21,777 nucleotides of DNA from a virus, in IMG/VR virus record IMGVR_UViG_3300032285_001156, positions 1 through 21,777 of that record. One strand, 5' to 3'. This document shows, in pieces, positions 858-21,093 of this stretch (the first letter of the stretch is position 1; each line of letters begins with the position of its first letter). Position numbers and translations under genes: made by a program. The notes beneath the pieces are model-generated. The model was not told the DNA's origin. It made no database searches and was given only the letters and a program-made list of their open reading frames with translations.

Positions 858-1179
858 TCCTCTGCCATATTCGGGCGCACTGAGAAGATTTTGTGAATCA
901 TTTGAAGCTGTCCCGGGGCCAAGTGACCGCAAGTTCTATAGACGTACTAGGGTTGACTGGTCCGACTATAATGACCCTAGGGTTGATTACGTTACTGAGA
1001 CTGTAGATGCTGTAGCAATACATATTCCTATCCATAGATTAGATGAATTTGTTAGCGCAATTGATGAACAGAGATATAAAGAGATGGAAATACGTGATAA
1101 TGTGCCTGCTGTGAAATTAGCATATGAACGTTACCAACTAATGCTAAAAATGTGTGGAGGCGACTATGCCGGATATTGA
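850..1179 (+). CDS. Hypothetical protein, about 109 aa
   Basis: An unrecognised small protein between the zinc-finger gene and the DnaE-like gene. A GTG at 844 is possible, but the ribosome-binding site AGGGAG ends at 844, so TTG at 850 (5-nt gap) fits better. Residues about 33-48 carry a short repeat, RVDWSDYND then RVDYVTET, encoded by the 10-bp direct repeat CTAGGGTTGA at 947-956 and 977-986, 30 bp apart and in frame. The C-terminal half looks helical. Its end overlaps the start of the DnaE-like gene by 14 bases, so both are probably made from one message and may work together. Confidence 0.6.
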   Translation: MSNPLPYSGALRRFCESFEAVPGPSDRKFYRRTRVDWSDYNDPRVDYVTETVDAVAIHIPIHRLDEFVSAIDEQRYKEMEIRDNVPAVKLAYERYQLMLKMCGGDYAGY

Positions 1180-1741
1180 TATTGACTTCGCCGACAGAAA
1201 TCGAGTGCTAGATGTAGTAAAAACTATCACGGCAGTCAACGGAGATAAGAAACATAACACAGGTGTGTACTGTCATTCGATTCCTTACAATCCTTTAACA
1301 GGTTTATCTACTATTGATTACAAAGAAGCGGAAGATAGGGGCTATTTTAAGATAGACTTTTTGAATGCCAGCGTCTATAACTCAATAAAAAGTGAAGAAC
1401 ACATCAAACATTTGTTATCTGTTGAACCACTATGGGATTTATTGGAACAAAAAGAGTTTTGTGATTTGATATTCCACGTAAATGGATATCATAGTTTGAT
1501 AGCGGAATTGAAACCTAGAACTATCGAAGAGTTGGCGATGTTTTTAGCCTTGCTCAGACCGGGGAAGAAGCATCTCGTCCCAATAGTCAGTGAAAAAGGC
1601 TTCGAGGCGGTCAAGGATGAAATCTGGGTTAAAACAGAAGACGCTTACTACTTTAAGAAAAGTCATGCTGTGGCGTATGCTCATGCTATTGTGGTACAAA
1701 TGAACCAAATTTGTGAATCAATCAGCTACGGGTATTCTTAG
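1166..1741 (+). CDS. Miniature C-family DNA polymerase (DnaE/PolC-like) palm protein
   Basis: A 191-aa protein that condenses the catalytic palm of bacterial DNA polymerase III alpha. Start: ATG 1166, with GGAGG at 1156-1160; an upstream in-frame GTG at 1154 is less likely. Motifs in DnaE order: PDIDIDF (residues 2-8; DnaE PDFDVDF with two catalytic Asp), KHNTGV (29-34; DnaE KHAGGV), KIDFLN (62-67; DnaE KFDFLGL with the third catalytic Asp), ELKPRTIEELAMFLALLRPG (114-133; DnaE finger/palm junction), FKKSHAVAYA (163-172; DnaE FNKSHSAAYA). Family members are about 1,100 aa or more; PHP, most of the fingers, clamp-binding and OB regions are absent. All three catalytic aspartates seem kept, so it is not a random remnant. 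It could be a minimal nucleotidyl-transfer enzyme, an accessory replisome protein, or a domesticated fold. Activity is not shown by sequence alone. Confidence 0.75.
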   Translation: MPDIDIDFADRNRVLDVVKTITAVNGDKKHNTGVYCHSIPYNPLTGLSTIDYKEAEDRGYFKIDFLNASVYNSIKSEEHIKHLLSVEPLWDLLEQKEFCDLIFHVNGYHSLIAELKPRTIEELAMFLALLRPGKKHLVPIVSEKGFEAVKDEIWVKTEDAYYFKKSHAVAYAHAIVVQMNQICESISYGYS

Positions 1742-2131: not shown

Positions 2132-3040
2132 ATGCAGAAATTACCTGTCTATTTATATACCAACTCTTATAGCATCACGCTAGATTTGGACAACTCACGG
2201 GGTGTTAACAACGTCATGTACCAACGAAATATCATATTCCAGAAAGGACTGAAAAATAAGGTCCAAATTCAGTTCAAAAATTCCGACCAAAAACCGGTAT
2301 CGATCTCAAGTGGTACTTTTTTCTTTAGAATGTTCGACAACAACAATGTTATGCCATTCCAACCTAAACAGTTAGAGGTGCTAGACGACGGCGTTACCAC
2401 AAGTACACGAGGTTTAGCCTTGCTAACATTAGGCGAAGGCGACACAGTTGATGTTACACCTAAAAAATACACCTTTAGCATCACAGCATTAGACACTGAT
2501 GGTAGCTATGTGCCAACCTATGCCAACACTTACTATGGTGTTAATGGTACAGCTGAGATACGTGAGGATGTTGAACCATTTTTGACCGAAAGTTTTTTAA
2601 CCGATGCGTTCAACTGGTATCGTGATACTCCACTCGACCGTCAAGGTATGCCACAAATGAACTGGTGGACATTTAGCAGTGGTACAATTGAGGTAAATCC
2701 TGCACTAAACACTAATGTCGGTTTACATACGTTTGCATTTTACCTAACAAATTTCAAAGGACACATTGATGTCTATGGAACTTTGGAAAATACACCAAGC
2801 GGACAAGGCAACGGTAATGAGTCTTATGCTCTATTAGAGTCAATACCTTACTCTAAGAATTTTACTGGTGTAGATTACCTAAATATTAGTGGAAATTATA
2901 CCAACTTCAAAGTCAAGTATGTACCGGATGCCGACGGCAGTGGTGCAAATTGGTACGGTGCTGGTGTGCCAGGCAATCCTATTACTGGACAACAATACTG
3001 GCCTAACGGAAAGATTGACAAAATCCTATTTAGAAGCTAA
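2132..3040 (+). CDS. Probable virion structural protein
   Basis: A 302-aa protein rich in Asn, Thr, Gly, Ser and aromatic residues and mostly beta by pattern, as in tail or baseplate proteins. The N-terminus (PVYLYTNSYSITLDLD, then the MYQRN and IIFQKG stretch) introduces a domain resembling phage baseplate upper-type domains: KVQIQFKNSDQKPV, FFFRMFDN, then YTFSITALDTDG. The C-terminal half has a jelly-roll-like look, with YLTNFKGHIDVYGTLENTP and the end GKIDKILFRS, a kind of ending seen in virion proteins of aquatic T4-like phages. The exact late box at its start supports a structural role. Baseplate, fiber or decoration protein cannot be told apart here. Confidence 0.6.
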   Translation: MQKLPVYLYTNSYSITLDLDNSRGVNNVMYQRNIIFQKGLKNKVQIQFKNSDQKPVSISSGTFFFRMFDNNNVMPFQPKQLEVLDDGVTTSTRGLALLTLGEGDTVDVTPKKYTFSITALDTDGSYVPTYANTYYGVNGTAEIREDVEPFLTESFLTDAFNWYRDTPLDRQGMPQMNWWTFSSGTIEVNPALNTNVGLHTFAFYLTNFKGHIDVYGTLENTPSGQGNGNESYALLESIPYSKNFTGVDYLNISGNYTNFKVKYVPDADGSGANWYGAGVPGNPITGQQYWPNGKIDKILFRS

Positions 3041-3049: not shown

Positions 3050-4048
3050 ATGAACCTGATTCAAGCGACTTTTATAAATTTCTTACCTCCGAAAAGAAAA
3101 GCAACTCCAAGTGGCTGGATCAGTTTCAACGCACCCTGTTGCGTCCATAATGGTGACTCTCCAGACAAACGCCAACGTGGTGGTGTAAAAACCTCAGGTG
3201 ACGACGGTTTTCAGTATCATTGCTTTAACTGTGGTTTCAAAGCTGGTTGGATGCCTGGTAAACTATTAAGTAAAAACACTAAAAATCTCATGAGGTGGAT
3301 GGGAGTACCAGATAGCGACATCAGCAAGCTATCACTGGAAGCACTCAAGAATAAAGAAGAATTAGACAAAACACCTATACCCCTAAATTTTGGGCTCGAA
3401 CCACGAAATTTGCCAGAAAATTGCAAAACTATAGACCAGTGGATTGACGAAGGTTGCGAGGATGAGGATTTTTTAAATGTAGTTGCTTACGTGCTTGACC
3501 GAGGTATGGAGCTTGACTGGTATGACTGGATGTGGACTCCAGAGGCTGGTTACAAAGATCGCGTAATTTTGCCATTTTTTCACAAAAATGTGGTTGTAGG
3601 CTGGACAGCTAGAAAAATACGTGATGGCAAGCCAAAGTACTTGACCACTGCTCAACCAGGTTACGTTTTTAATTTAGACAGACAAGATGAAAATAGGAAA
3701 TTTGTGATTGTTGTTGAAGGACAGTTTGACGCCATTGCAGTAGATGGTGTTGCTATCATGCACAATGAACCAAATCCCACTCAAATTTCACGAATTTCTG
3801 CACTAGGACGTGAAGTCATTATTGTTCCCGACAATGACAAGCCCGGTGCTAAATTAATATCCGCGGCCATAGACAATCATTGGTCAGTAAGTTTGCCAGA
3901 CTGGGGGCCAGACGTTAAAGACGTAGCAGATGCAGTGAAGAAATTTGGCAGAATTTACACACTTTTTACCATCTTACAATATCGTGAGACAGGTGAGACA
4001 AAAATTAAACTATTAAAGAAACAACTTGAAAACAAACATGACGACTAA
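3050..4048 (+). CDS. 61: DNA primase, T4 gp61-like
   Basis: A 332-aa primase that would make RNA primers for lagging-strand synthesis with the helicase encoded next. The N-terminal zinc module has APCCVHNGDSPD (Cys30/31, His33) and YHCFNCGF (Cys58, Cys61). A middle region RVILPFFHKN...GWTARKIRDGKPKYLT is the conserved primase/TOPRIM lead-in. The TOPRIM core shows VVEGQFDAIAVDG (Glu223, Asp227) and IIVPDNDKPG (Asp261, Asp263), the metal-binding acids. Length fits gp61 (about 340 aa). The ATG follows the previous stop closely, and the 3' end overlaps the helicase start by 11 bases, the usual coupling of these partners. Confidence 0.9.
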   Translation: MNLIQATFINFLPPKRKATPSGWISFNAPCCVHNGDSPDKRQRGGVKTSGDDGFQYHCFNCGFKAGWMPGKLLSKNTKNLMRWMGVPDSDISKLSLEALKNKEELDKTPIPLNFGLEPRNLPENCKTIDQWIDEGCEDEDFLNVVAYVLDRGMELDWYDWMWTPEAGYKDRVILPFFHKNVVVGWTARKIRDGKPKYLTTAQPGYVFNLDRQDENRKFVIVVEGQFDAIAVDGVAIMHNEPNPTQISRISALGREVIIVPDNDKPGAKLISAAIDNHWSVSLPDWGPDVKDVADAVKKFGRIYTLFTILQYRETGETKIKLLKKQLENKHDD

Positions 4049-5468
4049 TCAAATACCTAACTACAGTTCAGACGTTCAGAAGCTTTACATCGAAATGTTC
4101 ATGAGCGATGCTGAGACATTTTTTCGGTGTAACAACATATTTGACCCTGAAAATTTTGACAGAAAATTCCAGGACATTGCGACCTTCATTAAGAAGTATG
4201 TTGATGATTATAAAGTCATGCCTGAGGCAATGATTGTTAATGCGGCATGTGACGCTGACTTAAATCCGGCGGCATTACCTAAGGAAAACTATGAATGGCT
4301 GATGACAGAATTTGAGCAATTTTCACGTCATAAAGCACTTGAAAGAGCAATTTTAAAATCAGCTGATTTGTTAGACAAAGGTGACTATGGTCCAGTAGAA
4401 AAGATGATTAAGGATGCTGTACAGATCAGTTTGCAGAAAGACATGGGTACAGATTATTTTGAAGATCCGCGTAAGCGTCTTGAAGGATTGAAGAACACAA
4501 ACGGTCAAGTTAGCACAGGATGGCCCAGCGTTGACAAGAAACTGTATGGCGGCTTTAACAGAGGTGAACTTAACATTTGGTGTGCGGCGTCAGGTGGCGG
4601 TAAGAGTTTGTTCTTGGCTAACCAAGGAATTAACTGGGCACTTGCAGGTTTGAATGTTTTATATCTAACATTTGAATTGGCTGAAAATTTAGTGGCCATG
4701 CGTATGGATAGTATGATTACTGATATTCCAACTCGTGAAATTTTTAAGAGTCTTGATGACGTTGAATTAAAAGTTAAGATGACTGGCAAGCGAGCAGGTA
4801 GCGTACAAATCAAATATATGCCAAGTGGTAAGAACGCCAACGACATCCGCAGTTATTTGAAAGAGTATCAGGTTAAGAAAGGTTATAAGCCAGATGTTAT
4901 CCTAATTGACTATTTGGATTTGATGATGCCATTAAGCATTAAAGTCAGTCCAAGCGACTTGTTTGTTAAGGACAAATATGTGTCAGAAGAGTTGCGTAAC
5001 TTGGCAATGGAAACACAGGCTATTGTTGTAACTGCTTCACAGTTGAATCGTTCAGCTGTTGAAGAGATTGAATTTGATCACAGTCATATTTCAGGTGGCT
5101 TGAGTAAGATTCAAACTGCTGACAACGTAATTGGTATCTTTACAAGTCGTGCAATGAAGGAACGTGGACGTTATCAAATCCAGTTTATGAAAACACGTAA
5201 CTCGTCAGGTGTTGGTCAGAAAGTTGATTTAGAATTTGATGTAGACACTTTGCGTATTAAAGACTTGGGTGAAGACGAAGGATATAATTCTGCTCCTAAG
5301 ACCAGTATCTATGAAGGTCTTAAAAAGACATCTACTGTTGTTGATAAAGAAACAGGTGAGATTAAAACTAATCCAATGGAAGGTATTGGAGTAAACAAGA
5401 TCAAGGGTGTTGCGGGATCAAGTAAAGTTAGAGAATTACTTGCAGGACTTAATCCTGAAAAAGATTAA
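4038..5468 (+). CDS. 41: Replicative DNA helicase, T4 gp41-like (DnaB fold)
   Basis: A 476-aa replicative helicase that would form the hexamer unwinding the fork and work with the gp61-type primase just upstream. An N-terminal helical domain (about 1-140) precedes a RecA-like core: Walker A ASGGGKS (184-190), TFELAEN, Walker B VILIDYLD (about 287-294), and VVTASQLNRSA, typical of DnaB/gp41. The C-terminus has a charged tail. A TTG at 4026 would add four residues; ATG 4038 is preferred. The stop shares TTAA with the stop of the convergent YqgE-like gene (5465-5468), leaving no room for a normal terminator. Confidence 0.92.
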   Translation: MTTNQIPNYSSDVQKLYIEMFMSDAETFFRCNNIFDPENFDRKFQDIATFIKKYVDDYKVMPEAMIVNAACDADLNPAALPKENYEWLMTEFEQFSRHKALERAILKSADLLDKGDYGPVEKMIKDAVQISLQKDMGTDYFEDPRKRLEGLKNTNGQVSTGWPSVDKKLYGGFNRGELNIWCAASGGGKSLFLANQGINWALAGLNVLYLTFELAENLVAMRMDSMITDIPTREIFKSLDDVELKVKMTGKRAGSVQIKYMPSGKNANDIRSYLKEYQVKKGYKPDVILIDYLDLMMPLSIKVSPSDLFVKDKYVSEELRNLAMETQAIVVTASQLNRSAVEEIEFDHSHISGGLSKIQTADNVIGIFTSRAMKERGRYQIQFMKTRNSSGVGQKVDLEFDVDTLRIKDLGEDEGYNSAPKTSIYEGLKKTSTVVDKETGEIKTNPMEGIGVNKIKGVAGSSKVRELLAGLNPEKD

Positions 5469-6025
5469 AACAGCGTAGATATTTTTTGATTAACACAGTG
5501 GCTAATTGCCCTTTGCCACTGTTCTTCGCCTGTACCGCTCAGGCATATTTCTTCATTTGCATCTGCGGTTAGCCAAACATGATCCGGCGACCAAGGTGCA
5601 ATGCCACTCATTTCTCCGTCTAGTTGACCAGCACTCCAAGCGGCTAAACCAATTCCTGCTCTCCACATTATCGGCCCGTCTCCACCTGCTATTGCCGATA
5701 ATATTCCTAAGTCTCCAGTGATGCCTAAATTAGGTGCTATCTGTAGAGTACTTGCACTTGACCAATCCATAGTGTGTACAATATGAACCCTGGTTGGTTC
5801 AACTGGGCCGCCTATGTATACTGCTTCGTGACCGTTATAATTAATGCCTGCGGCACTCATAACTGTGGCAATGTTTATTGCTGATGCTTCTTTGTTGACC
5901 ATAACTCCCCATGCTCCATTGACTCCGTGCTGTGCAAGAAGTATCACACTTTTAGCAAAGTGAGAGCTTTGATTTTTTGGTTGAGAAACGAGGATTTTGC
6001 CTCCAAGTGAATTGAAACTGGTCAT
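5465..6025 (-). CDS. YqgE/AlgH family protein (UPF0301, DUF179)
   Basis: A 186-aa protein with the full pattern of the UPF0301 (YqgE/AlgH) family, a cytoplasmic bacterial family of unclear molecular function, linked in some bacteria to gene regulation. Visible motifs: GGKILVSQP near the start, GAWGVMVNKEA (37-47), VYIGGPVEPTRVHIVHT (69-85), a GDLGILSAIAGGDGP segment, and GLAAWSAGQLDGEM (116-129), matching the family's GYAGWxxGQLExE. Length is the usual 180-190 aa. ATG 6025 is chosen because a TAAATA box lies exactly 5 bases before it, as in other genes here; ATG 6031 would overlap that box, and an in-frame start at 6082 would run into the divergent gene. A bacterial housekeeping-type family is unusual in a phage. 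Confidence 0.85.
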   Translation of the reverse strand: MTSFNSLGGKILVSQPKNQSSHFAKSVILLAQHGVNGAWGVMVNKEASAINIATVMSAAGINYNGHEAVYIGGPVEPTRVHIVHTMDWSSASTLQIAPNLGITGDLGILSAIAGGDGPIMWRAGIGLAAWSAGQLDGEMSGIAPWSPDHVWLTADANEEICLSGTGEEQWQRAISHCVNQKISTLF

Positions 6026-6030
6026 ACGCA

Positions 6031-6038
6031 TATTTACG
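6031..6038 (-). promoter_or_regulatory. Late-type promoter box CGTAAATA for the YqgE-like gene
   Basis: Read leftward the box is CGTAAATA, then five bases, then ATG 6025. By T4 spacing the start of transcription falls on the A of the ATG. It adjoins the opposing box at 6040-6047. Confidence 0.55.
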
Positions 6039-6039
6039 C

Positions 6040-6047
6040 CATAAATA
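6040..6047 (+). promoter_or_regulatory. Late-type promoter box CATAAATA for the nucleotidyltransferase gene
   Basis: CATAAATA differs from the T4 late box only in its first base. The predicted start of transcription is about 6053, two bases before ATG 6055; no ribosome-binding site is present. It is back to back with the leftward box, only one base apart. Confidence 0.65.
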
Positions 6048-6054
6048 TAATCAT

Positions 6055-6726
6055 ATGTACATCTTTGAATATAATCCACCAATTGAACTGCACGACGAGC
6101 TAAACCCTGCTCTGTGGGACGGTGAAGAAATTAGACGCGAAATCCAGGTCAAACTGCTTAAAATTGGCCGAGAATTCTACGATTTTTTAGGGGTTTCGGC
6201 GCCGATCGAAGACGTTTTAATCACGGGGTCTCAAGCCAACTACGTGTATACTAAATGGTCTGATATAGATCTTCATTTAGTTATTGACTACAATAAAGTT
6301 GATTATGACGGGGATGTAAAAAAGCTGTTTGATGCCAAAAGAAAGGAGTGGAAACGCATGTATCCACTGAAACTTAAAGGCATCCCAGTTGAACTGTATG
6401 CAGAAAATTCTAACGAACCTGCGGTAACATCTACCTACAGTTTGATATCAAACGAGTGGCTTAAGAAGCCTGCGGCTCCATTAAAAACCTACGATTACGA
6501 TGGGGTAAAAAACCTGGCTTATCAGTGGGAAATTGTGATTAAAAAAGCCATTGATGTTAATGAGCTTGCTGTGCTCAACAAGATCAAAACTATGCTAAGT
6601 CTTTTCCGCAGAAAGAGTCTAGCACGTGATGGGGAATTTGGAACAGGAAATCTAGCGTTCAAAGCCCTTCGTAATAGCGGTCATATTGCAGACTTATTAA
6701 CGGCTGTAGAAACGCTAGAAAATTAA
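6055..6726 (+). CDS. Minimal nucleotidyltransferase (polymerase-beta fold)
   Basis: A 223-aa protein with the nucleotidyltransferase signature ITGSQANYVYTKWSDIDLHLVID: the Gly-Ser helix (58-59) and the metal-binding Asp pair Asp70 and Asp72, followed by a likely third acid in GIPVELYAEN. The C-terminal half is helical and basic (KTMLSLFRRKSLARDGEFG), as in proteins that move a nucleotide onto an RNA, protein or small molecule. Related proteins occur in marine T4-like phages without a known substrate. It diverges from the YqgE-like gene and ends tail to tail with the next leftward gene, sharing TTAA at 6723-6726. A toxin-like or tRNA-modifying role is possible but not shown. Confidence 0.8.
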   Translation: MYIFEYNPPIELHDELNPALWDGEEIRREIQVKLLKIGREFYDFLGVSAPIEDVLITGSQANYVYTKWSDIDLHLVIDYNKVDYDGDVKKLFDAKRKEWKRMYPLKLKGIPVELYAENSNEPAVTSTYSLISNEWLKKPAAPLKTYDYDGVKNLAYQWEIVIKKAIDVNELAVLNKIKTMLSLFRRKSLARDGEFGTGNLAFKALRNSGHIADLLTAVETLEN

Positions 6727-7393: not shown

Positions 7394-9109
7394 TTAGATG
7401 TTGGCTCTAACCAACCAAGAATATTTAATACTGCCGGCACTGGCATGTGAGTTAGTTGTATTATTACTAATATTTTTATCACTGTTGTAAACTGGAATCT
7501 TAATAGAGTTGGTCATTTGATATGGCGCATTTCTTCCAGATGTAAAGCCTAGTGTGATGCGGTCAGTTTTGTTACCGACAATGTTAGGCTGTACAATATA
7601 AGTTAAATCAGGATATAGGAAAACTTCGCAAGTACCTTTGTAGTACTCAGAATTTGTGCTGTCAACAAAGCTGATAGCCAACTCACCATATGTAATACCT
7701 GAGCAGTCTACAGTCAATAATGTTGCAGTAGTTCCGTAAGTCTGTGCGGCTGGCATGTCAACAGTACCAGGAACTGCTATTGGTTCAGATCCATGGATAC
7801 CACCAGGAGCTGTTCCGTAACCGTCCTCAAGACCAATCCTAGTGATAGTATCAGTTGTTTGGATGTAATAGGTAGCAGCCGCTTGATAAGTGATAGTAGT
7901 ATCAATGGTAAAATATGCTGTACCACCTATAGCACTAACTGATGTTACGTTATAGAACTGTTGTAAATTTTGATCAAATATAACCCACTGGCCTGACTGA
8001 TAGGCATTACCAATTTGATTGATTTGGTTGGCCCATTGACTTGCGGCTACTGGAATAACGTTAGTACTGGTTGAGCTGGCGCTGGCTGTTACAATACCTG
8101 TAGGAGTAAATGCACTACGAGCCATGTAGACATAATTTTGGTCAGCTTGTAGTGTACCAGCAATTTGATCTTTTTGTCCTTTTAATGTAGAAGGACTACT
8201 GATGTTTAATATGGTTGTAGTTGTGCTTAGACTGATACGTCCGTTGTTATCAACTGCAAGTCCTTGGCCAATTATAACACCACCTAATGTTGACTGTGTA
8301 GCTGGTGCAATACTAAATGTAGCTGGCTTGTTGACTAGGTCATTGTAGTCACCTGATGCCGCCACTGTGGCCAATCCCAAGTTAGCACGACCAATAGCTT
8401 TCTGTGGTGTGCTGTATGTAGTAGCTGTTGAGATGTCTAACTTGTTGCCCAGTTGGTTAGTTAGTAAACTTACTGTAGAAGTACTGGTGCTTAATAGTGA
8501 TGCCAACTGTTGGATCACTGAGAATGTTGTACCGCTTGTTCCAACTAAATTTGAAACCGCTGTGGAAACTGCTGTGTTTAGTGTAGCAGTAGTAACATAA
8601 GCGCCTAGTGTTGCTGAAGTTAGATAACCTGTGTCATTGCGGAAAGCACTTACAACTGTTGGATAGTCTAACAAGTCATAGAAGCTGCCGCTGGTTGAAA
8701 CTACCTTGAATGGAGGCAAGTGGGTAAGGTCGTTGTAGTCGCCTGTGCGTCCTACATTAGATATACTGCCTAAGCCGCCACCGCCTACACCGTTAGGATC
8801 AATCCATACAAAACCGCCTGTTGAATTGGCACTCAGGATCCATGTAGCTGTTGCTACATTATCGGTGCGCAACATGGTATTAGTGATCAAGTGTGTGGGG
8901 ATTTGTACTTCGCTGATTTGTCCAGTTAATAGGCTAAAACTGCCGCCTACTTGATGACTGGCACCTTGGATTTCAATACCGCCAGGTGTAGTACCATCGC
9001 TGATTCTAAATGATAGGGTATCGAGGTCAACAAATATTTCGCCTCTATGGGGCGTAAATGTTGCTCCGGAAGCAAGGCCTTCTTTACCTTGATAACTGCG
9101 TACTGGCAT
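7394..9109 (-). CDS. Tail fiber-like virion protein
   Basis: A 571-aa protein, poor in charge and rich in Thr, Ser, Gly and Ala, typical of fibers. The N-terminus (GEIFVDLDTLSFRISDGTTPGG, residues about 23-44) matches a short module common at the start of fiber and adhesin proteins. Fiber repeats follow: GDYNDLTHLP (123-132), GSFYDLLDYP (141-150) and GDYNDLVNKP (253-262). The segment LGNKLDISTATTYSTPQKAIGRANLGLA is typical of tail fibers. The C-terminus (about 330-571) is beta-rich and unlike the rest, and is the likely receptor-binding part. TATAAAAA and an AAGGA site precede ATG 9109. Expected at the virion surface. Confidence 0.8.
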   Translation of the reverse strand: MPVRSYQGKEGLASGATFTPHRGEIFVDLDTLSFRISDGTTPGGIEIQGASHQVGGSFSLLTGQISEVQIPTHLITNTMLRTDNVATATWILSANSTGGFVWIDPNGVGGGGLGSISNVGRTGDYNDLTHLPPFKVVSTSGSFYDLLDYPTVVSAFRNDTGYLTSATLGAYVTTATLNTAVSTAVSNLVGTSGTTFSVIQQLASLLSTSTSTVSLLTNQLGNKLDISTATTYSTPQKAIGRANLGLATVAASGDYNDLVNKPATFSIAPATQSTLGGVIIGQGLAVDNNGRISLSTTTTILNISSPSTLKGQKDQIAGTLQADQNYVYMARSAFTPTGIVTASASSTSTNVIPVAASQWANQINQIGNAYQSGQWVIFDQNLQQFYNVTSVSAIGGTAYFTIDTTITYQAAATYYIQTTDTITRIGLEDGYGTAPGGIHGSEPIAVPGTVDMPAAQTYGTTATLLTVDCSGITYGELAISFVDSTNSEYYKGTCEVFLYPDLTYIVQPNIVGNKTDRITLGFTSGRNAPYQMTNSIKIPVYNSDKNISNNTTNSHASAGSIKYSWLVRANI

Positions 9110-9121
9110 AATGTTGGTTCC

Positions 9122-9129
9122 TTTTTATA
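9122..9129 (-). promoter_or_regulatory. Late-type promoter box TATAAAAA for the fiber-like gene
   Basis: Read leftward TATAAAAA has one mismatch to TATAAATA. The predicted start of transcription is near 9116, seven bases before ATG 9109. The overlapping AAGGA could serve as a ribosome site only on a longer transcript. Confidence 0.45.
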
Positions 9130-9139
9130 GCACGGTGTG

Positions 9140-9147
9140 GTTAAATA
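9140..9147 (+). promoter_or_regulatory. Late-type promoter box GTTAAATA
   Basis: GTTAAATA is followed by seven bases and ATG 9155, the same spacing as at 6040. The predicted start is about 9153. It diverges from the fiber promoter. Confidence 0.5.
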
Positions 9148-9154
9148 TGTTACT

Positions 9155-9589
9155 ATGCTATTTACCGTTGATGTCAAACTTCCAGAGCCTCCACAGGCCG
9201 TCTACTTGGGTATTTTAAACTCAGGTTATTGTGTGCAAACAGCGCCGTTTATTCCAACGGCACAAGACTTTGATTGGGACGGAGAAATACCTGTTGATCA
9301 ACAGGGCCGTCCTATACTGCCCGGGCAACCAGAGATGACCCTACTACAAAAGGGATTTGATCGTTGTATAGATCCTATAAACTGCCGAGCAGTAGATCTA
9401 GGACTTCGCAACTTTCAATGGCCTGGACACATCACAATGGACAAGCCTGTTAGAATGCGTTACACAACAACTCGCGTCAAAGCACGCCTGGGCTGTTGGG
9501 ACATTGACTGGTTAGCTGAACTGGTAAATTCAGACGACAAGGTAGCAGTCAGCTACCTGCACTCACAACGCTGGTATCACCCAGGATAA
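9155..9589 (+). CDS. Hypothetical protein, 144 aa
   Basis: The open frame extends up to a GTG at 9137, but that region contains the TAAATA box, and ATG 9155 has the box-to-start spacing used by neighbouring genes. Visible features: LGILNSGYCVQTAPF, a Pro-rich middle (PVDQQGRPILPGQPE), several Cys and Trp residues (RCIDPINCR, LGCWDIDWL), and a short aromatic end (SQRWYHPG). I do not recognise the family. Its late-type promoter and position between fiber and glycosyltransferase genes suggest a virion or late function. Confidence 0.65.
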   Translation: MLFTVDVKLPEPPQAVYLGILNSGYCVQTAPFIPTAQDFDWDGEIPVDQQGRPILPGQPEMTLLQKGFDRCIDPINCRAVDLGLRNFQWPGHITMDKPVRMRYTTTRVKARLGCWDIDWLAELVNSDDKVAVSYLHSQRWYHPG

Positions 9590-12029: not shown

Positions 12030-12590
12030 CTATAAGATGGTTTTTATGGGATTTGATCGTACCCAGTCTGAATTGGTGGGTACGTAGTGTGCATAAGTGC
12101 TCATTATATAGCGATCAACGCCGTCGGGATCTGGTTGTCCACGATGTGTATGTGTCCAGAAGGTAGGAAACACAACTGCTCGCCCTTTACGTGACTCTAT
12201 AACTGTAGAATCATGCATAAACTCTGTGCCACAAGCATTATCACTCAAATAGACTATAATACATAGTATGCGATGTGGTAGAGCTAGATTATGTTCACTG
12301 TGCCAACGATCGTAGGAGTAAGTGGGCGGAAAATGTTTGAATCGCCAAGGACTAAACGCTAGAGCGTTGTCCATGTAGTCTAGTGAGAGAAAACGTGATC
12401 TATACTGATCAAGTAGATCTGAACTTAGCTGAGCAAGTGGCATATTCGTAAGCTCAAGATCCAAATGACGATAGCCCATATGTGAAGCTAAATGCCGGCT
12501 GGACAAGCCCTGAGCAAGACTAGACTCAATGATCTGATCACAAGCACTAACACTTAGCGCATCTTCAACTACCAGCGTGAAATCAATCAT
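12030..12590 (-). CDS. 2OG-Fe(II) oxygenase
   Basis: A 186-aa non-heme iron dioxygenase-like protein of the prolyl-hydroxylase type. The core shows RWHSEHN (His97, Glu99), ILCIIVYLSDNACGTEF, KGRAVVFPTFWTHTHRG (His147 or His149) and RYIMSTY (Arg160, expected to bind 2-oxoglutarate). The metal triad is thus HxE...H rather than the commoner HxD...H. Such proteins are frequent in aquatic T4-like phages, where substrates are unknown; protein or nucleic-acid hydroxylation is possible. Its start overlaps the upstream small gene by eight bases, so the two are probably co-translated. Confidence 0.82.
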   Translation of the reverse strand: MIDFTLVVEDALSVSACDQIIESSLAQGLSSRHLASHMGYRHLDLELTNMPLAQLSSDLLDQYRSRFLSLDYMDNALAFSPWRFKHFPPTYSYDRWHSEHNLALPHRILCIIVYLSDNACGTEFMHDSTVIESRKGRAVVFPTFWTHTHRGQPDPDGVDRYIMSTYAHYVPTNSDWVRSNPIKTIL

Positions 12591-20148: not shown

Positions 20149-20399
20149 CCCCATGCGTTATATAACCCTATAACTCCTAGGGTTAATGCTACAACGTTAA
20201 CCAACATCTGTGGCTTATTTCCCACACGGATAGTCCAAGCTAAGAAACAAAGGGTACCAACAAAGAATGATGGAATAGCATATGGATACATGCTAGGACC
20301 TTCTCCTGATAGTAATAATTGGTTGCCAATAGCATTACAAAGGTGCCCTCCGATGATGCCTATAGCTCCTACCCACTGTAACAGATCATTAAACTTCAT
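20145..20399 (-). CDS. Three-helix membrane protein, 84 aa
   Basis: Three hydrophobic segments: WVGAIGIIGGHLCNAIG, YAIPSFFVGTLCFLAWTI and MLVNVVALTLGVIGLYNAW, joined by short loops with GNKPQ. The pattern faintly recalls three-helix half-transporters (SemiSWEET or PnuC-like), because of the Trp-Thr-Ile-Arg...Asn-Lys-Pro-Gln region, but this is not enough to name it. It overlaps the upstream gene's end by 11 bases, with an AAGGAT site, and TGA lies within the next promoter. Confidence 0.72.
   Translation of the reverse strand: MKFNDLLQWVGAIGIIGGHLCNAIGNQLLLSGEGPSMYPYAIPSFFVGTLCFLAWTIRVGNKPQMLVNVVALTLGVIGLYNAWG
20178..20187 (-). repeat. ATTAACCCTA motif, also the arm of a TAACCCTA/TAGGGTTA hairpin
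   Basis: Identical decamers occur at 15631-15640 and 18659-18668. Here the motif pairs with TAACCCTA at 20163-20170, an eight-base arm with a seven-base loop, inside the end of the membrane gene. Confidence 0.4.
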
Positions 20400-21093
20400 T
20401 CTTAATCCTTATCACGAATCCACTGTAGTCCTTCTTGGCGCGACCCTTAGCCTTCAATCCCAGCATGACTCCACGTGGATCCAGGAAGCGAAGATCGGTC
20501 TCGTCCGCTGATGGAACTCCCTGGGGGATCTCATCGTATACTGCGACAACACTCATGCCCTGCATTAATGCCTTGGCCACGTCCGCATCATTCCCATCAG
20601 CCTTGCTGAACGTGAGGTGATAGTTGGAGTACTGCGCAACCTTACGTCCTAGTACTTTAGTATAATCATAGAACTGTACTTCGGGAAAGATCTGGAAAAT
20701 GTTAAGACCCGTGCCGTTGACCTCATACTTCTCCCAGCTGAGATCTGAGGTACCATTCAGACGAAACACGGGCTTGAGCCCCAGCTTCTTAGCCAGCTTG
20801 ATCGCCTTATGGATGTCCTGGGTCAACCAGTTGAAGAACGTAGTGCGATCTTCAAAGAACATCTTGGTCTTGCGTATACGAGCCTTTTGGATCGTATTCG
20901 TCGTCTCACCCTTCTTGAACATGCCACCACGGCCCGCTGTATTGAGACAAGCCGCTGTACATCCTGCGGTTCGCTTGGGACATGTTTCCTTACCTGAAAG
21001 ATCAGCTGGGGCCAAGTGTAGGATGAAGCTAAGATAGCCCAGTTTCGTACCCTTCTGGATCTTAGGGTTAGCTGTAGACAATAGTTTGAACAT
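20389..21093 (-). CDS. Conserved phage protein with Cys cluster (DUF7227-like)
   Basis: A 234-aa protein of a type common in phages: MFKLLSTANPKIQKGTKLGY, then LSFILHLAPADLSGKETCPK, then GCTAACLNTAGRGG (Cys cluster), KARIRKTKMFFEDRTTFFNW, then PVFRLNGTSDLSWEKY. Members have no settled function. The four Cys (about residues 38-49) could bind a metal or iron-sulfur cluster. The C-terminal part (HLTFSKADGNDADVAKALMQ) and GVMLGLKAKGR complete the family pattern. ATG 21093 follows AAGGAGC. Confidence 0.78.
   Translation of the reverse strand: MFKLLSTANPKIQKGTKLGYLSFILHLAPADLSGKETCPKRTAGCTAACLNTAGRGGMFKKGETTNTIQKARIRKTKMFFEDRTTFFNWLTQDIHKAIKLAKKLGLKPVFRLNGTSDLSWEKYEVNGTGLNIFQIFPEVQFYDYTKVLGRKVAQYSNYHLTFSKADGNDADVAKALMQGMSVVAVYDEIPQGVPSADETDLRFLDPRGVMLGLKAKGRAKKDYSGFVIRIKNEV

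Follow-up and report, generated by a model that had tools for sequence, protein, structure and literature searches.

The gene at positions 1166-1741 (+ strand) of the window, which is the whole 21.8-kb fragment of an environmental phage (virus record) analyzed here, was found to encode one half of a split minimal Pol III alpha. This half (the C-half, family phrog_11778, 191 aa plus stop) contained the three catalytic aspartates, and the GRGS motif and helix of the Pol-beta-type nucleotidyltransferase core lay outside it, on a separate gene (the N-half) identified in related phages. The two halves together probably make up a reconstituted nucleotidyltransferase that is used in replication or repair.

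The C-half gene and its protein

All five DnaE motifs noticed in the first-pass annotation were located, in order, in the intact open reading frame: PDIDIDF at residues 2-8 of the 191-aa protein, KHNTGV at 29-34, KIDFLN at 62-67, LKPRTIEELA...LRPG at 115-133, and FKKSHAVAYA at 163-172. The ATG at 1166 gave the M-P-D start found in most environmental relatives, and the GGAGG at 1156-1160 (+ strand), 5 nt before this ATG, is a likely ribosome-binding site as judged from the sequence. Residues 3-185 matched phrog_11778, annotated as "DNA polymerase", with an E-value of 6e-62. The match to the Pfam DNA_pol3_finger domain (E 7e-4) remained below the Pfam cut-off, and the DnaE matches in NCBIfam were weak. 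When the C-half family was searched as a profile against the PDB, a check that the annotation had proposed, solved DnaE chains were the only matches (best E 5e-5) apart from one chance match. By sequence comparison, the DnaE-like motif set was more than a chance resemblance. The C-half was 48% identical to that of its nearest isolate, Atu_ph07. The gene was intact and under purifying selection, with a dN of 0.09 and a dS of 1.12 (dS being near saturation) against its closest relative and nucleotide changes mainly in third codon positions.

By tblastn, the C-half had matches in 90 records of isolate phages; in 89 of these the match spanned at least 80% of its length. The isolates were large phages, for the most part of jumbo size (Atu_ph07, Phosso, PA5oct/Paride, 121Q, GAP32, RaK2, CBB, XaC1, and SCTP-2), and the smaller phage Slickus01 (142 kb) also carried the C-half. 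Among viral contigs, at least 549-595 stretches matched the family. The proposed small size was conserved, with lengths of 185-204 aa in 101 relatives. No match was found in the plasmid collection searched. Bacterial and archaeal genome contigs gave 21 matches, of which 20 were weak (22-31%) and looked like ordinary DnaE; only one resembled the C-half family. This was a 3.7-kb contig of an archaeal Natrialbaceae MAG, 49% identical over nearly the full length, and it was probably phage contamination. The family therefore appeared to be restricted to phages within the collections searched. Several GenBank records labeled the C-half as "hypothetical" or "putative membrane protein". In Atu_ph07 (NC_042013), where the C-half occupies 8992-9567, the RefSeq gene begins at 9073 although the frame is open upstream to the ATG at 8992, so that the conserved DxD strand is cut off.

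Conservation of the catalytic residues

The Asp triad of the C-family was found in the C-half in the forms PD(F/I)D(V/I)DF and K(F/I)DFL. The codons of D3-I-D5-I-D7 (1172-1186, + strand) encoded the metal-binding DxD strand, equivalent to D401, D403, and D405 of E. coli DnaE, and those of K62-I-D64 (1349-1357, + strand) encoded the equivalents of K553 and D555, the latter being the third catalytic Asp. Residues H30 to G33 (1253-1264, + strand), in the segment directly after the deleted thumb, corresponded to H511 and G514. R131-P132-G-K134 (1556-1567, + strand) and FKKSH at residues 163-167 (1652-1666, + strand) corresponded to R639-P640-G641 and to FNKSH at 756-760, respectively, and both belonged to retained finger parts. 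D3, D5, and D64 were unchanged in all 101 aligned relatives; the three catalytic aspartates were thus kept, as the first reading had it, and no loss of an Asp was seen. Residues D7, H30, G33, K62, R131, P132, K134, F163, K164, H167, Y171, and N180 were also invariant in this set (n=101).

Since MPDIDIDF was used as a seed in the first scan of viral contigs, Asp conservation was biased in that scan. A motif-blind scan was therefore run, for which the seed was confined to the sequence that follows the third Asp. It yielded 80 loci, three of which were cut by contig ends, and DxDxD and KxDxL were kept in 77 of the 77 complete ORFs. Both motifs were also kept in the isolates found by tblastn and, likewise, in the diverged XacN1 and RAS14. 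The catalytic Asp and Lys residues and GRGS were unchanged at overall identities down to ~29%.

Predicted folds

AlphaFold models were built from natural sequences, 101 for the C-half and 61 for the N-half, with mean pLDDT values of 91.0 and 86.8, respectively. The best PDB matches of the C-half model, seven in number, were all Pol III alpha, with a probability of 1.00, a query TM of up to 0.63, and E-values of 2e-3 to 1e-2; the best matches of the N-half model (12) were Pol III alpha or PolC. The modest E-values were due to the shortness of both pieces. The structure prediction called for by the annotation thus placed Pol III alpha first, and the fold match agreed with the phrog_11778 and PDB profile matches in supporting descent of the C-half from DnaE.

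The separate N-half and the split point

A search of the complete relatives with PF07733 revealed a second small ORF with about 170-210 aa of open frame, in which the match stopped just before the point where the C-half starts. This N-half belonged to a separate family of about 170 aa, phrog_11127, also annotated as "DNA polymerase" (E 2e-39 for the N-half of a relative). In the alignment, the N-half ended at E. coli residues 392-393 and the C-half started at 399-400, so that about six residues separated the two. In 121Q, for example, the two halves are gp56 and gp16. The G-x-G-R-G-S motif was invariant in the aligned N-halves, and the residue equivalent to E. coli R390 was not conserved. The distance from GxGRGS to the N-half end was exactly 35 residues in 74 of 75 ORFs, and no natural fusion of the two halves was found among these 75. 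The absence from the C-half of this first part of the palm, the GRGS motif with its helix, had been overlooked in the first-pass annotation.

Both halves were present in 15 of 15 complete isolate phage genomes, each of which also had a B-family polymerase, in agreement with the T4-like replisome setting suggested earlier. With both profiles applied to eight long environmental contigs, the two halves were found together in all five of those >180 kb, and three fragments of 108-172 kb had the N-half and lacked the C-half. The N-half was absent from the 21.8-kb window, where so distant a gene is not expected, and no B-family polymerase was found among the scanned ORFs of this fragment; the pairing was thus observed in the relatives rather than in the phage of the window. 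The DxNSLYP and DTDS motifs were intact in most of the B-family polymerases of the relatives. In Atu_ph07 and Slickus01 the B-family polymerase appeared to be spread over two ORFs, so splitting was not confined to the DnaE-type core in this group.

Parts of DnaE that are missing

Two internal segments were also missing from the C-half, a deletion of thumb and index finger that the first-pass annotation had not noticed. The distance from D7 to H30 was 23 residues, and its E. coli counterpart (405 to 511) is 106, an indication that the thumb was gone. From G133 to F163 it was 30 residues versus 115 in E. coli (641 to 756), which indicated that the segment with YQEQVM and RRAMGKK was gone. The index finger region, YQEQVM...RRAMGKK at 686-716 of E. 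coli, therefore had no counterpart in the C-half, and the Pfam finger domain match ended short of it in the C-half proteins. The DnaE index finger region contacts the incoming nucleotide. The first-pass statement that the fingers were gone applied to the index finger but not to KPxSIEELA..RP and FKKxH, finger parts that the C-half retained.

The missing parts were also searched for elsewhere in the 15 complete genomes. With phrog_405, a profile of full-length phage DnaE, profile positions ~322-437 were matched by the N-half and positions ~579-696 and ~776-809 by the C-half. Because the only other match was a weak one of 27 residues in Phosso (E 0.01), a third piece was not detected. The PHP, HhH, OB, and clamp- and tau-binding parts were not found in these genomes with this profile; the PHP, OB, and clamp-binding parts all lay outside the C-half, just as the annotation had stated. 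A third gene carrying the index finger or thumb was also sought in the same genomes with PF17657 and phrog_405, and no candidate was convincing; a weak match (E 0.02) was to an ORF of 558/565 aa in GAP32 and its sister phage CBB.

Gene neighborhood

The C-half gene was preceded by phrog_11058 (162-857, + strand), a conserved neighbor with a weak C2H2-like zinc finger that was found at this position in 12 of the 13 isolates compared, and by a short ORF without a family (844-1179, + strand) that overlapped the C-half start by 14 bases. Downstream was the convergent phrog_11637 (1722-2111, - strand), which likewise kept its position in 12 of the 13; this tail-to-tail arrangement with the C-half was a very stable pairing. 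A gene of a virion structural protein family, phrog_14467 (2132-3040, + strand), a gp61-like primase with a weak Toprim match (3050-4048, + strand), and a gp41-like, DnaB-like replicative helicase (4038-5468, + strand) followed. The order phrog_11058, short gene(s), C-half, phrog_11637, structural-type gene, primase, helicase was the same as that of the window in 12 of the 13 isolates. The structural-type gene was constant in place and matched in sequence in about half of the isolates. In the thirteenth isolate, Slickus01, only the C-half and helicase corresponded to the window order. UvsX, UvsW, and a DnaQ-like exonuclease were encoded upstream of the C-half in several isolates, and clamp-loader genes were located near the N-half in relatives.

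Several other genes of the window were identified. A second Pol-beta-type nucleotidyltransferase (6055-6726, + strand; phrog_36119) showed a weak NTP_transf_2 match and GS and DxD motifs. An AlgH/YqgE-like protein (5465-6082, - strand; DUF179, E 4e-30) had no PHROG match and was of a cellular type unusual for a phage. A 2OG-Fe(II) oxygenase-like protein (12030-12590, - strand; phrog_61) matched PF13640 at the cut-off, and a GP88 family protein (20389-21093, - strand) matched PF17338 with an E-value of 3e-37.

Discussion

Whether such a protein was already described had been left open in the first-pass annotation, and it was. As given in the available text of Iyer et al. 2021 (PMC7824862), group 2.2 jumbo phages have a minimal, phage-specific Pol III alpha split in two, with an NTP-binding N-terminal protein and an Mg- and template-binding C-terminal protein encoded by distant genes. 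The same text reports that the split Pol III alpha accompanies a B-family polymerase, suggests that the polymerases cooperate in making one of the strands or in repair, and presents the assembly of both halves into an active enzyme as a proposal. Among the papers searched by phrase for the split enzyme, PMC7824862 was the only match, and no experimental test of the split core was found. Like that protein, the C-half of the window contained DxD and the third Asp and had neither PHP nor C-terminal domains, and no categorical difference from the available description was seen. Our analysis adds to that description the split point, the loss of thumb and index finger, the motif-blind conservation of the aspartates, the constant pairing, the synteny with primase and helicase, and the absence of a detected third piece. 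In PHROGs v4, phrog_11778 and phrog_11127 are separate entries, both named "DNA polymerase", and no statement joining them as one core was seen in these entries. Earlier sightings in RaK2-like phages were the truncated 172-aa Pol III alpha of phage CBB, CBB_328 (PMC5259590), and the Pol III alpha subunit gp316 of Atu_ph07 (PMC6102473). Both correspond by size and annotation to the N-half, and the available text of these two papers says nothing of the C-half as part of a polymerase. The phage halves share the catalytic aspartates, GRGS, RP, FxKSH, and the fold with bacterial DnaE of E. coli, Thermus, and M. tuberculosis. Unlike these, the phage core consists of two chains and lacks PHP, thumb, index finger, HhH, OB, and clamp- and tau-binding parts.

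The signature of Pol-beta-type nucleotidyltransferases consists of a GS helix followed by a DxD strand. Since the split falls within this signature, neither half would be expected to be catalytic alone. The strict conservation of both motif sets in genes that are always paired argues for a reconstituted metal-dependent nucleotidyltransferase. In the proposed mechanism, the N-half, encoded near a clamp-loader gene, would supply the GxGRGS motif and the helix gripping the triphosphate, and from the C-half would come the DxD strand together with the third Asp and what is left of the fingers. Both proteins would assemble into one Pol-beta-type active site, which would hold two Mg ions and add nucleotides; this physical assembly and catalysis are inferred. 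The split core may then lengthen primers made by the adjacent primase and hand them off to the phage B-family polymerase. Bacillus DnaE similarly extends primers before the hand-off to PolC (PMC5627055). Primer extension, a guess drawn from the gene position and this analogy, is the leading one for the split core, with gap or repair synthesis a close second; taken alone, it is a tentative assignment that may well be wrong. Without thumb, index finger, PHP, and clamp-binding parts, the split core would be expected to be distributive and to carry out short synthesis rather than bulk replication. The missing index finger and thumb also mean that templated polymerization is not assured. The full proposal, in which a two-chain DnaE core lacking thumb and index finger is active, template-directed, and extends primase primers for the B-family replicase, is more doubtful still.

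The loss of thumb and index finger from the C-half, with neither found elsewhere in the 15 genomes, would also suit a reconstituted core that acts as an untemplated nucleotidyltransferase on an end, a protein, or a small molecule, since such an enzyme has no template to grip; the invariance of the metal-binding and GRGS residues is compatible with this too. However, the retained finger parts (KPxSIEELA..RP and FKKxH) hold invariant residues and match DnaE fingers, for which an end-labeling enzyme has no obvious need, and the gene setting is that of a replication fork, so that we regard an untemplated activity as unlikely. We give just as little credence to the idea that the pair is left over from a captured DnaE as a relic without catalytic function, structural or regulatory in nature, which helps to hold the replisome together. 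The large-scale deletion of functional parts, the division into two genes, and a B-family polymerase able to replicate, with intact motifs in most relatives, would fit such a relic. Yet a structural relic needs none of the three catalytic aspartates, the Lys, and GRGS that stay invariant to ~29% identity, and the DnaE parts that bind the host exonuclease, tau, and the clamp are the very ones missing.

The first-pass annotation had proposed a minimal C-family enzyme, and the presence of all three catalytic aspartates in one protein is what speaks for a stand-alone polymerase of 191 aa. But the C-half starts inside the Pol-beta signature and has neither the GS motif nor the first helix of the palm, which Pol-beta-type nucleotidyltransferases use; all complete genomes that were checked encode the GRGS half in a gene of its own, and the stand-alone enzyme was for this reason rejected as highly improbable. 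Least credible of all is a full-length polymerase of which a frameshift or an assembly error has left only this fragment, a reading to which nothing but the small size points. The length is constant in 101 relatives, the C-half is under purifying selection, unrelated conserved genes flank it in 12 of 13 isolates, and the other DnaE parts are absent nearby. The flanking DNA, which the annotation had named as a place to look, contained no frameshifted full-length polymerase, and a broken polymerase was ruled out by the relatives, the synteny, and the selection.

A reconstituted nucleotidyltransferase made from the two halves remains the preferred reading. If the halves form an active enzyme, they would define the minimal working core of C-family polymerases, and would show that the active site of this core can be built from two chains split inside the nucleotidyltransferase signature. 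They would also provide an example from nature of a bacterial-type and a B-family polymerase sharing a fork. If the core does extend primers for the B-family replicase, a bacterial-type and an archaeo-eukaryotic-type polymerase would operate at a single phage fork, and the C-family would have a new lower size limit.
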